From positions 1 to 24,931 of IMG/VR virus record IMGVR_UViG_3300008264_000022: a stretch of DNA of 24,931 nt, one strand, 5' to 3'. The translations under genes were made by a program, and so were the position numbers. The notes below the pieces were generated by a model. The model had not been told where the DNA came from. It did not search any database and saw only the letters and a list, made by a program, of their open reading frames with translations. Positions 1 to 24,912 of the stretch are shown here, piece by piece. The stretch comes from a virus. Numbering within the stretch: the first letter of the stretch is position 1; every line of letters begins with the position of its first letter.

Positions 1-138
1 GCTGCCAGCCGGGAAATCCGCGAGGTTATCGAAGCCCGGCAGGAACGGCTTGACCAAGCTGCCGCTTATGCCCGTGAGCAGCTTAATGCAAAGCGCCGCG
101 AACAGTATGCCGAGCGCAATGTCGTGAACATGCGCTGA
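1..138 (+). CDS. C-terminal fragment of a plus-strand gene, function unknown
   Basis: An open frame enters from the left edge in frame 1 and ends at a TGA at 136-138, giving 45 residues of a protein whose start lies outside the window. The fragment is rich in Glu, Arg, Gln and Ala with a spacing typical of a charged alpha helix or coiled coil (it contains REIREVIEARQERLDQ). It is the only convincing plus-strand coding sequence and it converges on the end of the minus-strand late operon. No function can be assigned from this much sequence. The alternative is that it is a chance open frame, but its charged helical composition argues for real coding. Confidence 0.55.
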   Translation, partial: AASREIREVIEARQERLDQAAAYAREQLNAKRREQYAERNVVNMR

Positions 139-263: not shown

Positions 264-653
264 TCAGCCGAGCGGGTTGTAAGCCTTCGCGCAAGCGTTC
301 ATCACCGCACTGTTTAACACCGGCACGTCACTGTCCGGCGTCGGCATGGTCCACATCATCGAGTTTTCGGCTGAGCAGGTGATCTCGCCAACTTCGGCCA
401 GCGCCAGCGTGCGGTGAACATAGAACCCCGCCGCAAGCACCGTCAGCAGCAGCGCAGCGAAGGCCACGTATTGCAGCCAGATTACGCCGTGGAAGCCTGC
501 CGCCGAGACATAGTGCGCCTTGACCTTCCCGGCGTTGATGGGCGCCAGGGCCTCGTCTGAGGCTTTTACGAGCGCAGGCTTGCGAACGGGAAAGACCGGC
601 TTGTGTGGCGGCTTGGGTGCGTAGCGCGAGGAGCGGGTTATTTTTGTGGGCAT
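264..653 (-). CDS. Single-pass membrane protein at the end of the lysis block
   Basis: This 129-residue protein is not recognised as a named family. The N-terminal 50 residues are basic and proline-rich. One hydrophobic helix spans about residues 56-80, followed by a roughly 45-residue tail with two cysteines (C93 and C121). By the positive-inside rule the basic N-terminus is cytoplasmic and the cysteine-bearing tail periplasmic, where a disulfide could form. The ATG overlaps the end of the Rz1 gene by 16 bases and has no clear ribosome binding site, suggesting coupled translation. It is the last gene before the terminator. Its position after the spanins makes a lysis-related role (for example regulation of holin timing) conceivable, but nothing in the sequence proves it. 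Confidence 0.7.
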   Translation of the reverse strand: MPTKITRSSRYAPKPPHKPVFPVRKPALVKASDEALAPINAGKVKAHYVSAAGFHGVIWLQYVAFAALLLTVLAAGFYVHRTLALAEVGEITCSAENSMMWTMPTPDSDVPVLNSAVMNACAKAYNPLG

Positions 654-892
654 AGGGCACCGAAATACAGGTTGACCCGCTCGATCTGGCGAACGGTTTC
701 CTCGCTGTCGTAAATGTTCAGCGGGTCTTCAATCGTGCAACTATCGGCCACGCAATAGGAATACGTGATCGGCTTCCAGTCACGGCAGGCGGCTTCTGTT
801 GTTTGGATCACGGGCGCGGAGCTGGCGCAGCTGCTCAGCGTTAAGATCGTCAGTGCTGCGAGCAGCTTCGCGGGCGTCTTCAACACGTTCAT
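638..892 (-). CDS. Rz1: Outer-membrane lipoprotein spanin subunit (o-spanin, Rz1-like)
   Basis: The protein has 84 residues. It begins with a lipoprotein signal peptide: basic start, hydrophobic stretch at residues 8-19, then the lipobox LSSC with the lipidated cysteine at residue 22. The mature part is short (about 63 residues), with cysteines at 36, 47, 52 and 81 and the motif CRDWKPI, similar to small Rz1-like proteins of many prophages. In the family, the o-spanin sits in the outer membrane and binds the inner-membrane spanin to fuse the membranes in the last step of lysis. The open frame extends upstream to 976, but the start chosen (ATG at 890-892) has GAGGA eight bases before it and gives the correct signal peptide. 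The first 113 bases overlap the Rz gene in another frame, the classic Rz/Rz1 arrangement. Confidence 0.88.
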   Translation of the reverse strand: MNVLKTPAKLLAALTILTLSSCASSAPVIQTTEAACRDWKPITYSYCVADSCTIEDPLNIYDSEETVRQIERVNLYFGALCPQK

Positions 893-1097
893 TGGTGTGG
901 TCCTCGATCTGTTGGGTAATCTCTTCACGCACCTCGATGCGCGCTTGACGCTTGAACTTCCGGTCCCGCATGGCAAGCCAGATGCGATGAATGAAAGCGC
1001 CGGTCAGTATGATGGCAATCCAGCGTGTAACCGGGTTTGCCCAGATAGCTTTGCCAGCGCGTTCTGCGAAGTCGAAGATGGCGAACATGAACGGCAT
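780..1097 (-). CDS. Rz: Inner-membrane spanin subunit (i-spanin, Rz-like)
   Basis: This 105-residue protein has one N-terminal membrane helix (about residues 24-42) followed by a strongly charged helical segment (about 45-95) rich in Glu, Arg and Gln, the layout of Rz-type i-spanins. It would be anchored in the inner membrane with the coiled coil in the periplasm, reaching to the Rz1-like lipoprotein encoded within its 3-prime end. Assignment rests on topology, position directly after the lysozyme and the overlapping lipoprotein gene. Its ATG shares one base with the lysozyme stop codon (TGATG) and AGGGG lies eight bases upstream. An in-frame ATG three codons further (1086-1088) is a possible alternative start. 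Confidence 0.85.
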   Translation of the reverse strand: MPFMFAIFDFAERAGKAIWANPVTRWIAIILTGAFIHRIWLAMRDRKFKRQARIEVREEITQQIEDHTNERVEDAREAARSTDDLNAEQLRQLRARDPNNRSRLP

Positions 1098-2134
1098 CAG
1101 TACATCCCCTGCGATGCCGATTCCTCGCCCCGCTTGCGTCTCCAGTCGCCGTATTGTTTGGCCACGAACGCAATCACAATGCCCGTGACGAACACCAGCA
1201 GCGGAATGGTCAGGTCCAGCAAAGCGGTCCCCAGCACCGCATCAGACTGGACAACGTTGGCCACACCCGCCGCTGCGGTGCCGAACGTGCCAAGGCCGGT
1301 CAGGCGCAGGAACAGGCGGGCGAGGTTCTGCCAGAAATACCCGATGGCGCGTTCGCTTTCTTCCAGCGGCTTGAGGCCAGCGTTCGGGTCGATCTTGTAA
1401 GGCACTTCTTCCGGTTTGACCGTCTTGGGGCTGATGGGTTTTGTTCCGATCTGCGGCTCGGGTTTGACTTCCGGCAGCGGCTCGACCTTGACCGGGACAA
1501 CCGGCTTTGCGGGCTTTGGCGGATCGGGGAGGCTGGCGATGGGTTTGGCTTGTTCGGCCAGTTCAAGGATATAGTCCGGGGGCGTCATGTCCACGATGTT
1601 GCCGTTCTCGCGTTTCAGGACGGCGCTTAGGGCGAAGTGCCACGGCCAGCCAAAGAACATGCACAGCTCTGCCAGACGGCGCCGGTAGAGGCCCTGCTCG
1701 AAGATCGTGCCGGGGTTTTTGTATTGTATCCACTTTGCAATGACTGCATCGAGGTCACGGGCGCGAAGGTTCACCAGCGCGGGGAGCGAATACTCGCCGC
1801 GTTCCAGCTTGCCCTGATTGATGTTGAACACCCAGGATGACAGGGCATCGAACTCGGCCTGTGACTGCGCGTTGAAGTGCTTGCGGGTCAGCGGATCGGA
1901 GACGCTGCGGACGAACCATTCCAGAGCGGTGTCAGCTTCCTGCTGCGTGATGACAAGGCCATCGGTGACAGGGCGACCGTCAGGCATTGCGCCTGTGATG
2001 CCCCAGCCGATTGTCCACGGGTCGCCCGGCTTCTTGTAGGCCTTCAGGCGCCCGTCAGGCAGGCGCTCGGCACAGCCTTCGAAGCGCTTGATAAGCTCCA
2101 TTCCGGCTGGCGAAGTCTCGTACCACTTGCTCAT
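1097..2134 (-). CDS. GH24-type lysozyme fused to a C-terminal holin-like membrane domain
   Basis: The 345-residue protein has an N-terminal lysozyme domain (about 1-160) with the family signatures LIKRFEG (candidate catalytic E19), AYKKPGDPWTIGWG (T41) and GLYRRRLAEL. GH24 enzymes cut the glycan strands of peptidoglycan. A Pro/Val/Lys-rich linker (about 195-245) leads to a weakly hydrophobic Gly/Ala segment (278-295), a strong membrane helix (305-325) and a basic tail. No signal peptide is present. Phage GH24 endolysins are usually about 150-180 residues, so the length is unusual. The residue aligned with the usual catalytic Asp/Cys is lysine (K35); D38 lies nearby. The ATG overlaps the upstream TGA by one base; a GTG immediately before it (2135-2137) sits six bases from AAGGA and may be used instead. 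Spanin genes follow directly. Confidence 0.88.
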   Translation of the reverse strand: MSKWYETSPAGMELIKRFEGCAERLPDGRLKAYKKPGDPWTIGWGITGAMPDGRPVTDGLVITQQEADTALEWFVRSVSDPLTRKHFNAQSQAEFDALSSWVFNINQGKLERGEYSLPALVNLRARDLDAVIAKWIQYKNPGTIFEQGLYRRRLAELCMFFGWPWHFALSAVLKRENGNIVDMTPPDYILELAEQAKPIASLPDPPKPAKPVVPVKVEPLPEVKPEPQIGTKPISPKTVKPEEVPYKIDPNAGLKPLEESERAIGYFWQNLARLFLRLTGLGTFGTAAAGVANVVQSDAVLGTALLDLTIPLLVFVTGIVIAFVAKQYGDWRRKRGEESASQGMY

Positions 2135-3495
2135 CACGCAGCTTCCTTGTCGTCTGGTTTGTCGTTTGCAGGCGGCTCGTAGGGCGCCACAGGATACTCA
2201 AGTGGTTCGGGCGGAATGTCCAGTTCATCCGTAGCCGGAGTTTCTGGTTCTGGCTCCGGTTCCGGCTCTGGCGCAGGTTCTGCCGCCTCGCCTGTGAAGA
2301 ACAGCGCTGCGTGTTCCTCGGGGGTCATGTGCGGGCCATATGTCATCCGCATCTGCGCCAAGGTCAGCCCCGAGCCGTTTGCAATCGTGACAGTCGGAAC
2401 CCCTTGGTTATGGGCCACCATCCATCCTGCGATCTTGTCTCGGTAGTATTCGTCACCGGCTTCGATCTTGTTGCCCTGCCGTCTCGTGCGGGCGCCCTTC
2501 TTTGCGCCGGTCTGGATGTTGCGATGCACTTCCATCGCCCGTTCGTACTCGGCCCATTCTTCCTCGGTCATCTCCATGCGGACATGGCCGGGAGGAACGT
2601 CAGGCGAGATGCTTTCAGTGATGTCAGATTTTTTCTTTGCCGTGATCGTTGTCACCAGCGCCCAGAGGCCAAACGTCCGAGCCAGCTCGAACACCCACAG
2701 CATGACTTCCACCCAGATGGTTGCCTCGCGGGCCTTGCGCGCCCGGTCTGCCAGATCGGCTTGCAGGACGGCGGGGTTAGTCGCCGCAGCCGCTACACCT
2801 GCCGCCGCTGTAACAGCGCCTGCCGCGAGGGCTTCTTCCCGCAGGCCAAGGTTAGTTAGCTCACGGGAGATTTCTTCGCCCCGTGAGCGCATGGCAGCTT
2901 CGGTCAGTTCGGCCCTGATCCCGTCCACCCGCCCGAAATACTTGCCCTGCGCGATCAAGAGCGATTGCGCTTCCTTGACCTTCTCAGGGCTTTGCGAGGA
3001 CATAAGCTGCTGTTCGGCTTTCAGCGCGGCAATGTCTGTTCGCACCCGCGCAAGCTCTTCCGGCGTGGCGTCGATGGCCTTGCTACGCGCCTCTGCGATC
3101 AGTCCCGCCTCAGTCCCGGCGATGCCTGCTTTGGCTTCCAGCAAGGCAGCGCTTTCGGCAAACTCGGGGTAGATCAGATGAACCGCGCGCTTGCCGTTCT
3201 GGATACACGCCCACGCTACGCCGATCATGATGATTGCACCTGCCGCACGCCGCCACCAGTTCGGGGCGAGCATGACGCGCACCAGAATCACCGCGCCAAG
3301 CAGTTCTGCCCCGCACACGATAATCGCCAGCGCAACACGGATGATCAATTGCCCGACAGACGAGCCTTGCGAACCCGCAAGCACGCCCATGACGTTCATC
3401 GTGGCAAGGCCAACGGTGATAATGCATACGGCAATAAAGGCCGCTGCCTGAGTAGCGGTTTCCTCGCTCTCAGCCTTTAAGAATGGTAATGACAT
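2134..3495 (-). CDS. Four-helix membrane protein with long coiled coil, unknown function
   Basis: The protein has 453 residues and is not a family I recognise. Membrane helices are visible at about 18-38, 50-74, 84-99 and 261-284. Between helices three and four lies a charged, helical region (about 113-260) that looks like a coiled coil. Basic residues flank the helix 2-3 loop (RVMLAPNWWRR) and follow helix four (TAKKKSD). By the positive-inside rule this places the coiled coil in the periplasm and the C-terminal 165 residues in the cytoplasm. The tail includes a segment with a helix-turn-helix look (about 350-390) and an acidic Glu-Pro repeat. AGGGG lies five bases before the ATG. It sits immediately before the lysozyme, so a role in lysis or the host envelope is plausible but unproven. 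Confidence 0.75.
   Translation of the reverse strand: MSLPFLKAESEETATQAAAFIAVCIITVGLATMNVMGVLAGSQGSSVGQLIIRVALAIIVCGAELLGAVILVRVMLAPNWWRRAAGAIIMIGVAWACIQNGKRAVHLIYPEFAESAALLEAKAGIAGTEAGLIAEARSKAIDATPEELARVRTDIAALKAEQQLMSSQSPEKVKEAQSLLIAQGKYFGRVDGIRAELTEAAMRSRGEEISRELTNLGLREEALAAGAVTAAAGVAAAATNPAVLQADLADRARKAREATIWVEVMLWVFELARTFGLWALVTTITAKKKSDITESISPDVPPGHVRMEMTEEEWAEYERAMEVHRNIQTGAKKGARTRRQGNKIEAGDEYYRDKIAGWMVAHNQGVPTVTIANGSGLTLAQMRMTYGPHMTPEEHAALFFTGEAAEPAPEPEPEPEPETPATDELDIPPEPLEYPVAPYEPPANDKPDDKEAA
2240..2285 (-). repeat. Glu-Pro dipeptide repeat in the membrane protein tail
   Basis: Short imperfect tandem repeats of GGTTCTGGCTCC-like DNA encode alternating Glu and Pro (APEPEPEPEPETP, about residues 408-420). 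Such runs form stiff, extended acidic linkers. They separate the helix-turn-helix-like segment from the proline-rich C-terminus of the membrane protein. The repeat could vary in copy number by replication slippage. Confidence 0.75.
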
Positions 3496-16768: not shown

Positions 16769-17113
16769 TCAAAAGTAATTCTGCGGAACGGTCTGGTGGT
16801 CCTGCTGCATCGCGATCACCTCGCGGATGCGCCTCATCCCGAGTTCCCGCATCTGCTCGCACTCACCGACGCTCATGTCAGGCACAAACCTGCGCCCCAC
16901 ATTCCCGGCTACCATGAGGGTCAGCCCCCTCATCACCGCTTCGGGAATGTCCGTCAGTTCCCAATACGCAATGCGCCGTTCCTGCAATTCCGCATGAACC
17001 TCGGCAATGCCTTCATCCACGGTTGCGTCATCGGTTGCATTCGGCGTTGCCCCGCCTTCAAGGACGTAGAGTTCCTTCAGTACACGAGCGACAAGGTCAG
17101 CCTGCGTTGCCAT
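16769..17113 (-). CDS. Head-tail adaptor, gp4-like
   Basis: With the start at 17111-17113 the protein has 114 residues. It is helical, beginning with ATQADLVARVLKELYVLEGG, the kind of opening seen in gp4-type tail accessory (adaptor) proteins that attach below the portal ring and allow gp10 to bind. Assignment rests on that pattern, size and position between capsid and gp10-like genes. The frame is open to 17146, but the chosen ATG has GGAG seven bases upstream and the longer N-terminus is unlike the family. It overlaps the glycosyltransferase gene by 17 bases. P22 gp4 is somewhat longer (166 residues) and has a reported peptidoglycan-cleaving activity; no such motif is visible here. Confidence 0.7.
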   Translation of the reverse strand: MATQADLVARVLKELYVLEGGATPNATDDATVDEGIAEVHAELQERRIAYWELTDIPEAVMRGLTLMVAGNVGRRFVPDMSVGECEQMRELGMRRIREVIAMQQDHQTVPQNYF

Positions 17114-17807
17114 CAGCCATCTCCATCGCCTGCATGATGTCTGCAAGGCTCAGCGTGTGCTCCACAAGGCCTTCAAAATGGGACAGCCTCACGTCAGGAT
17201 CGCACCAGCATTCATAGTCGAGCTTCTTGGCCTGGTTGCAGAAGTAATAGTCCTCGCCAACGTCATAGCCTTCAGCGTCCACGTCGAACCAGAACCATTT
17301 ACGCATGGTCAGATCACCATGCGCGCCGTCACGGGTCTTGTACTCGGGAGCAAGGCCAGAGGCAGCAAGGTCAGTGAACACCGACCCACGCACTAGCAGA
17401 AACCCCGTACCCACACGGTTTGCCTTGATGAGGCCATCCGGCCCACGCTTCAGCTCGCCGTCAAACATCATTGCGCCGGGCTCACCCCATTTGTGCGTCC
17501 GCTTTTGTGCGGCGCCCGCAATGATGTCCTTGTCATGCGCGATCAGCCGGAACACGTCTTCCGCCTTGAACGCAATGTCATCATCGACCCAGAGCACCCA
17601 GTCCGCCCCGAAATCCACCGCGCATTGCGTTAATGCGTTGCGGTTCTTGCAGAGGACCGATGAGCCCTTGTTGTAGAACCTGCGGAATGCAATGCCCCGC
17701 TTGAGGCATTGCACTCTCAGGTCCGCAATCGCCTCGCCATGCTCAATATGTACCTGCCCCGTAAGGCTGGGCGTAAGCACGGCAAGGCGGAGAGGACGGT
17801 CTGTCAT
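17097..17807 (-). CDS. GT-A-fold glycosyltransferase (phage GT2-like)
   Basis: The protein has about 236 residues and carries the features of small phage glycosyltransferases: KNRNAL after the nucleotide-binding strand, the acidic metal and nucleotide-sugar motif WVLWVDDDIAF (DDD at about 75-77), VGTGFLLVRG (about 132-141), and GEDYYFCNQAKKLDYECW followed by a conserved-looking His (about 184-210). The family transfers a sugar from a nucleotide donor; donor and acceptor cannot be read. It lies between the decoration gene and the head-tail adaptor gene, overlapping both, so it is made with virion proteins. A virion protein or a host surface sugar are the likely acceptors. No membrane helix is visible. 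ATG shares one base with the upstream TGA; a GTG just before it is an alternative start. Confidence 0.8.
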   Translation of the reverse strand: MTDRPLRLAVLTPSLTGQVHIEHGEAIADLRVQCLKRGIAFRRFYNKGSSVLCKNRNALTQCAVDFGADWVLWVDDDIAFKAEDVFRLIAHDKDIIAGAAQKRTHKWGEPGAMMFDGELKRGPDGLIKANRVGTGFLLVRGSVFTDLAASGLAPEYKTRDGAHGDLTMRKWFWFDVDAEGYDVGEDYYFCNQAKKLDYECWCDPDVRLSHFEGLVEHTLSLADIMQAMEMADGNAG

Positions 17808-18187
17808 CACGCTGCCGGGATGTAGCCGATATAGACATGGCCCACACCGGCAGTTGCCGTGGTGCCCGTCGAAGCGGCCTCACAGGTGATCGTCACTTCA
17901 GACGCGCTGTACAGGTCGTTCGACGTGGCCAGTTCGTCCCAGACGATATTGCCAATCGTGCGGAGCGAAAGGTCCGTTGCGAACCCGTCGCCATCGCCAG
18001 ACGTGCCAATGTCCAGAACATCCGACGTGCCGGAGTTCCATGCCGTCGAGACGACAACACCGGCAGACACGACAATTGCCCCCGCCGGAAGAACGCCAAC
18101 CGTCTGAACGCCCGTGTTGGCAAACGTCAGGTCCTTGCGGAGGTAGTGGATTTGGTTTGTGTGATACACACGAGCTTGAGAGCCCAT
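17807..18187 (-). CDS. Putative capsid decoration (cement) protein
   Basis: This 126-residue protein is beta-rich and low in charge, with VGVLPAGAIVVSAGVVVSTA near 30-49, then LDIGTSGDGDGFATDL near 58-73 and many Thr, Ser and Gly residues to the C-terminus. Proteins of this size and style follow the major capsid gene in many podoviruses and serve as head decoration or cement proteins. Identification is from position and composition, without a specific motif. AAGGAG lies about seven bases before the ATG. Its TGA overlaps the glycosyltransferase ATG by one base. It could instead be another minor head protein. Confidence 0.7.
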   Translation of the reverse strand: MGSQARVYHTNQIHYLRKDLTFANTGVQTVGVLPAGAIVVSAGVVVSTAWNSGTSDVLDIGTSGDGDGFATDLSLRTIGNIVWDELATSNDLYSASEVTITCEAASTGTTATAGVGHVYIGYIPAA

Positions 18188-24637: not shown

Positions 24638-24721
24638 TCACCCCTCCGGCCAAGCCTGGCTGGCGATTGCGATGAACAGGCCAAGCCCGAGGCAGAACAG
24701 GATGGCGGCTGCGAACAGCAT
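24638..24721 (-). CDS. 27-residue hydrophobic micro-ORF
   Basis: A 28-codon frame fills the gap between two genes exactly. Its ATG shares one base with the upstream TGA (TGATG) and its own TGA abuts the downstream ATG. The peptide is almost entirely hydrophobic (MLFAAAILFCLGLGLFIAIA then SQAWPEG), one membrane helix with a short polar end. Ribosome binding is weak, so translation would depend on termination of the preceding two-helix membrane protein gene. It may be a small membrane partner of that protein. The exact fit argues for reality, but chance or simple leader use to position the next ribosome binding site is possible. Confidence 0.5.
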   Translation of the reverse strand: MLFAAAILFCLGLGLFIAIASQAWPEG

Positions 24722-24912
24722 CAGGCGTTACGCTTCGCGGCCTTGTAGCCGTAGAACGCTGCGCCAGCGAAGATCACGAAGCCAACGAGGGCGACGAACT
24801 CGGACGGCAGGGCCTTTGTGACAGCGCCGTCAAGGGCGATGTTGTCCACCAGGAACGCAAGGGCGAGGCCAGCGAGGGCGTTGCCGATCGTGGGGAGGTC
24901 AATGTTCTTCAT
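24721..24912 (-). CDS. Small two-helix membrane protein, holin candidate
   Basis: The 63-residue protein has two hydrophobic segments, about 8-24 (IGNALAGLALAFLVDNI) and about 36-56 (PSEFVALVGFVIFAGAAFYG), and a basic end (YKAAKRNA). That is the layout of small class II-type holins, which make the membrane lesion that lets endolysin out. Evidence is topology only; it lies beside the terminase genes, far from the lysozyme and spanins. AAGGG is seven bases before the ATG, so the start is good even though the gene is near the window edge. The next small frame overlaps its stop by one base. Other functions for a two-helix protein are possible. Confidence 0.65.
   Translation of the reverse strand: MKNIDLPTIGNALAGLALAFLVDNIALDGAVTKALPSEFVALVGFVIFAGAAFYGYKAAKRNA

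Follow-up and report, generated by a model that had tools for sequence, protein, structure and literature searches.

Is a phage lysozyme with a membrane segment at its C terminus a lysis protein that releases itself, or an anchored enzyme that works together with other proteins? The question is raised by a gene in the window, by which we mean the whole 24,931-nucleotide stretch of viral DNA analysed (IMG/VR record IMGVR_UViG_3300008264_000022), which is part of a phage genome and encodes terminase, portal, and capsid proteins. An earlier note had read positions 1097-2134 as a lysozyme followed by a holin-like membrane hairpin and had suggested a self-releasing lysis protein. As described below, the fusion of a GH24 domain and a C-terminal membrane segment in one polypeptide is real, while hairpin and self-release fared less well.

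Gene organization of the lysis cassette

The endolysin gene is located on the minus strand (read on the plus strand, 1097-2134 contains stop codons) and forms a single intact ORF of 345 amino acids, from an ATG at 2134 to a stop codon at 1097-1099. Its start overlaps the stop codon of the upstream gene (GTGATGAG), and its own stop codon shares bases with the start of an Rz-like gene (TGATG). These overlaps on both sides resemble the arrangement in a translationally coupled operon. The Rz-like gene (780..1097, minus strand) encodes an i-spanin candidate of 105 amino acids, recognized by its position, its overlap, and one TM segment (residues 23-43, dG -0.9) followed by a charged coil; no family match was obtained in Pfam or PHROG searches. 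The gene for an Rz1-like o-spanin lipoprotein with the lipobox LSSC (638..892, minus strand) begins inside the Rz-like gene, and its product matches the Rz-like spanin family phrog_1275 (E 2.4e-6). The endolysin gene is thus directly upstream of the pair, and downstream of Rz1 a 129-amino-acid protein with one strong TM segment in the TM scan is encoded (264..653, minus strand).

The gene coupled upstream of the endolysin (2134..3495, minus strand) is an ORF for a 453-amino-acid protein, in which the TM scan found three strong TM segments and one or two weaker ones. Its counterparts are found in the related contigs L003 (2597-3991), L004 (4622-6001), and L007 (2325-3548). The protein is a mosaic: the N-terminal membrane half is of one type in the window and L007 and of another in L003 and L004, and the window, L003, and L004 have a conserved C-terminal half in common. 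Residues 171-203 contain a faint PG_binding_1-like motif (E 0.079). More distant phages carry a DnaK/Hsp70-like gene of about 510 codons directly upstream of the endolysin (L007 3545-5086, L008 3515-5038, L020 466-1983, L021 4638-6176), where the window has the 453-amino-acid gene instead. A convergent gene for a 214-amino-acid multi-pass membrane protein faces the lysis operon (window 1-137, plus strand; L002 7997-8641, minus strand) and is kept in L003 and L004. Among the structural genes, the product of 17097-17810 (minus strand) matches phrog_1574 and by eye resembles a glycosyltransferase (VDDDI).

The GH24 domain

The enzyme domain (residues 18-156; 1667..2083, minus strand) matches Pfam Phage_lysozyme (PF00959; E 6e-17, 62.6 bits with a cut-off of 22.3) and the PHROG endolysin family phrog_7 (E 1.8e-26). 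In a fold search, its best matches to solved structures were phage and prophage GH24 lysozymes. The Glu-Asp/Cys-Thr triad of these enzymes is a feature of activity, and a GH24 domain match holds without it. By alignment, the window endolysin has the catalytic Glu (E19) and T40; its triad is incomplete, with Lys34 (2033-2035, minus strand) in the usual Asp position. The window protein and L003 share this Lys, L004 has the usual Asp, and the distant group has Cys. The Glu is invariant among the aligned relatives, and the Thr position is variable. Because of the Lys, activity is not assured for the window protein and L003. That the domain is still under purifying selection (see below) suggests that it is probably functional.

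The C-terminal membrane module

We scanned the window protein, its relatives, and control proteins for TM segments using a Hessa-type insertion energy. Since the scale is our own re-implementation and two of the control sequences are presumed ones, the dG values are to be read as relative guides. The scan identified one strong helix at residues 304-326 (dG -1.1; 1157..1225, minus strand), which agrees with the helix at 305-325 in the earlier note and provides the membrane segment on which that reading depended. The six relatives scanned have a counterpart (dG -1.2 to +0.6), so that a single strong TM segment followed by a basic tail is present in seven of seven proteins. A helix as good as 304-326 arose in 7 of 300 residue shuffles. 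The claims of a Pro-rich linker behind the GH24 domain and of a basic tail also held: a Pro/Val/Lys linker spans residues 196-262 (1349..1549, minus strand), delimited by codon comparison and an abrupt shift in divergence at its start, and the tail spans residues 327-345 (1100..1156, minus strand) and is nearly invariant in the alignments (YGDWRRKRGE..QG.Y). Its YGDWRRKRGE part and the pre-helix segment VPYKIDPNAGLKPLEESERA are the most conserved stretches. In the N-terminal 140 residues, no segment scored below +4 in the same scan, which indicates that there is no N-terminal signal; the absence of a signal peptide is therefore upheld.

The most fitting description of the element preceding the strong TM segment is a markedly amphipathic helix plus a short Gly/Ala piece, and not a clear first TM segment. 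Residues 262-279 have the highest hydrophobic moment of the protein (0.71) and belong to a Trp/Phe/Arg amphipathic helix (residues 261-280; 1295..1354, minus strand), placed at 259-280 by AF2 with low confidence. The Gly/Ala-rich segment, which we delimit at residues 281-297 (1244..1294, minus strand) and which had been assigned to 278-295, does exist; it is weakly hydrophobic, residues 271-291 scoring +1.6 in the window protein and their distant counterparts between +3.0 and +3.3. Of the class II hairpin pattern, the second TM segment is thus strong and the first ranges from +1.6 (window) to +3.3 (relatives). The control holins, with sequences presumed to be correct, include real TM segments scoring +1.9 to +3.8, and the presumed sequence of pinholin S21 gave +3.8 and 0.0. 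In AF2 models of two family members, the tail forms, at low confidence, an amphipathic helix followed by a short and then a long one. A two-TM hairpin is possible, but because of the weak first segment and the low-confidence three-helix order, the C-terminal holin-like hairpin of the earlier note is not established. Searches of the module against Pfam, PHROG, and holin-family profiles, the latter suggested in the same note, gave no holin match.

The number of spanning helices bears on the side at which the enzyme is located. The RRKR motif within the K/R cluster behind the last helix predicts a C-in orientation, and consequently N-out if only one helix spans the membrane. One spanning helix would place the enzyme in the periplasm and two would place it in the cytoplasm. 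The cytoplasmic location assumed before does not follow.

Conservation of the module and divergence of the enzyme

The module is carried by eight IMG/VR contigs (L002, L003, L004, L007, L008, L009, L020, and L021); an additional one, L022, is cut at the contig end and was left out of this count. The L002 sequence is the same as that of the window, L003 and L004 are closely related, and the other five have about half of the tail residues in common, with the L009 endolysin being the same as that of L008. Over the parts compared, the window itself matches a 36.9-kb IMG/VR contig at 99.95-100% identity. A GH24 domain was found in all six distinct relatives scanned, and in each of five distant phage contigs it was the only GH24 match. 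In the relatives read, the Pro-rich linker and the module always follow, and then come an Rz-like gene and an embedded or overlapping lipoprotein gene.

When codons were compared between the window and L003 or L004, the respective omega values were 0.31 and 0.25 for the enzyme, 0.04 and 0.02 for the linker, and 0.06 and 0.04 for the membrane module, at a synonymous divergence of 0.18-1.0 in linker plus module. By this measure, and in the comparison with these two close relatives, purifying selection acts far more strongly on the module than on the enzyme. Near residue 196, nucleotide identity to these relatives climbs abruptly from some 60% to some 90%; the enzyme domains are 52-64% identical, and the membrane module is near-invariant. 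The simplest account of this pattern is that enzyme heads have been swapped onto a retained anchor; differing constraint alone is the other possible account. What is new is a distinct anchor module that stays almost unchanged between related phages while the enzyme in front of it differs strongly. Domain order, cassette position, module conservation, and strong purifying selection are demonstrated by these comparisons, and the endolysin is a real, conserved, and functional-looking protein with its own conserved C-terminal membrane module in a lysis cassette.

Scans of a collection of genome contigs for the module gave no match except L032, a chance hit in a 79-amino-acid Verrucomicrobiales ORF unrelated to endolysins. 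No match of the module was obtained by tblastn against phages at E 10. When the endolysin of a distant relative was compared to plasmids and phages by tblastn, the matches listed covered GH24 only and ended by about residue 200; Azospirillum lysozymes inspected here are encoded by 474-bp genes and are too short for a membrane module.

Comparison with known endolysins

The earlier note had contrasted soluble endolysins with SAR endolysins and thereby missed a third known kind, the endolysins with a C-terminal TMD (LysAP, M4Lys, Enc34, and Siskin), which the study of Siskin suggested to be a class of their own (PMC6498227). The window protein has an N-terminal peptidoglycan hydrolase encoded in a lysis cassette, a C-terminal TM segment with basic residues, and no N-terminal signal. 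By these features it belongs to the LysAP/M4Lys kind, which is defined by architecture and not by homology of the modules.

LysAP of Acidovorax phage AP1 is a GH24 enzyme proposed to be a C-terminal SAR endolysin; it lyses E. coli alone, needs its TMD, and synergizes with a proposed pinholin (PMC8879335). Compared by its description, LysAP likewise has GH24 first, no signal peptide, and a C-terminal TMD beside cationic residues, and is part of a lysis cassette. It differs by its canonical E-D-T triad, shorter length (TMD at 194-216), and adjacent holin gene, whereas the window protein has a region of about 100 residues with Pro-rich linker and amphipathic helix and a Lys in place of the Asp, and its gene is not adjoined by a holin gene. 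M4Lys, Enc34, and Siskin, from Chi-like phages, share the order of enzyme, weak amphipathic segment, strong TM segment, and basic tail, and the TM profile of M4Lys is also weak-then-strong (dG +3.3 and -0.8). In contrast to the window protein, they have an unrelated catalytic domain and an adjacent candidate holin with one TM segment, and the tail of M4Lys showed no detectable sequence similarity to our module (hhalign probability 0.8%). M4Lys expressed alone lyses E. coli and requires its C-terminal TMD, and this TMD alone is bacteriostatic and not lytic (PMC7143992). For the Siskin endolysin, two C-terminal TM segments with an N-in, C-in topology are predicted (PMC6498227).

The SAR endolysins P1 Lyz and R21 are GH24 enzymes tethered to the membrane as well, but their anchor is N-terminal, and that of the window protein is C-terminal, with no N-terminal hydrophobic segment under dG +4. 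The best NCBIfam match of the GH24 part was NF058676 (BgtA, the endolysin of the Bartonella gene transfer agent; E 5.3e-11), with 42.5 bits against a cut-off of 315 and with the part past position 144 of this 220-residue model unmatched. The polarity factor SpmX of alphaproteobacteria reportedly descends from a phage lysin, according to the title of a 2019 paper by Randich that is cited in PMC12364344. Like the window protein, SpmX has GH24, a Pro-rich middle, C-terminal membrane segments, and a conserved catalytic Glu, and in Caulobacter its lysozyme domain is thought to be largely on the cytoplasmic side (PMC5347347). The SpmX model NF051871 matches our lysozyme part weakly, far under the equivalog cut-off (E 8.9e-8, 31.7 of 700 bits), and leaves the C-terminal part unmatched; unlike SpmX, the window gene is part of a phage lysis cassette.

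Separate holin candidates and a model for lysis

There is no holin gene between endolysin and Rz. The TM scan revealed a candidate holin encoded upstream of the terminase genes (24721..24912, minus strand). It has 63 amino acids, two predicted TM segments, and a basic tail, and is 98% identical in the L003 phage and 89% in the L004 phage. Thirteen related contigs, many short ones among them, carry it in nearly invariant form (89-100%). In the phages of the distant group, a two-TM protein of 65-77 amino acids is encoded after Rz1. Profile searches gave no holin-family match for these small candidates, and the 63-amino-acid protein resembles the post-Rz1 proteins only weakly (hhalign probability 9.9%). 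In Pam1, the closest phage by terminase (58% identity), the gene for a soluble lysozyme is followed by genes for a two-TM-like and an Rz-like protein. No support was obtained for a shared origin of the module with this two-TM-like protein, the 63-amino-acid protein, a small L007 protein, or M4Lys. Since separate two-TM candidates exist, in the window and behind Rz1 in distant relatives, self-release is not needed, and the suggestion of a self-releasing lysis protein is not supported in the form given.

We favor the view, with a probability of about 65%, that the gene encodes a GH24 endolysin whose own C-terminal module anchors it in the inner membrane, within a cassette of endolysin-TM, Rz, and Rz1. 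The module would insert after translation and hold the enzyme at the membrane. Lysis would be triggered by depolarization of the membrane, with a small holin or pinholin encoded separately (the 63-amino-acid protein, for example) as the probable cause, or alternatively by build-up of the anchored protein. The enzyme would then reach and cut the peptidoglycan, and the spanins would breach the outer membrane last. A comparable mode of action is assumed for LysAP and M4Lys. We know of no mechanism by which a C-terminal signal would export a domain at the N terminus of a protein.

It is unlikely that the module is a passive tether, tail-anchored or an N-in/C-in hairpin, which only concentrates or delays a cytoplasmic enzyme released by a separate large-hole holin. 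The predicted topology of the Siskin endolysin, the largely cytoplasmic work of SpmX with its same domain order, and the presence of small holin candidates are all consistent with such a tether, but LysAP and M4Lys require their TMD for lysis, beyond the expectation for a passive tether, and the charge bias favors N-out if one helix spans. Rather unlikely, too, is a self-sufficient protein whose module oligomerizes like a holin, opens the membrane, and passes its own lysozyme domains, making any other holin unneeded. Pam1 has its two-TM protein in the very interval that lacks a holin gene here, the weak Gly/Ala segment, strong TM segment, and basic tail resemble pinholin S21 (as we presume its sequence to be), and M4Lys and LysAP lyse cells when expressed alone; this is opposed by the candidate two-TM holins elsewhere in these genomes, the missing holin-family match of the module, and the bacteriostatic, non-lytic effect of the M4Lys TMD alone (PMC7143992). 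An internal start producing a free holin was rejected as well, because none is conserved with a ribosome site. Slightly less probable again is the version in which the module both times and opens the membrane for its own lysozyme, with interchangeable heads on a fixed module. The reading that two genes were joined by a frameshift or misassembly, or that a soluble endolysin carries a chance hydrophobic tail, found nothing in its favor and has practically no probability left: the low module omega (0.04-0.06), the abrupt change in divergence, and the recurrence in related contigs, which keep the fusion in one intact frame, refute it already and exclude the sequencing frameshift considered before.

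Implications

The authors of the Enc34 study have posed the question of how C-terminally anchored endolysins move an N-terminal enzyme across the inner membrane, and state that no known mechanism explains this export (PMC8943055). A survey of viral lytic proteins from 2025 left out endolysins with TM regions (PMC12596118), so that the class may be under-counted. With its same domain order, the window protein offers a phage-side counterpart for comparison with SpmX, a bacterial protein thought to be derived from a phage lysin. The relatives described here would provide a natural experiment, in which one near-invariant membrane module is combined with enzyme domains that are only 52-64% identical.
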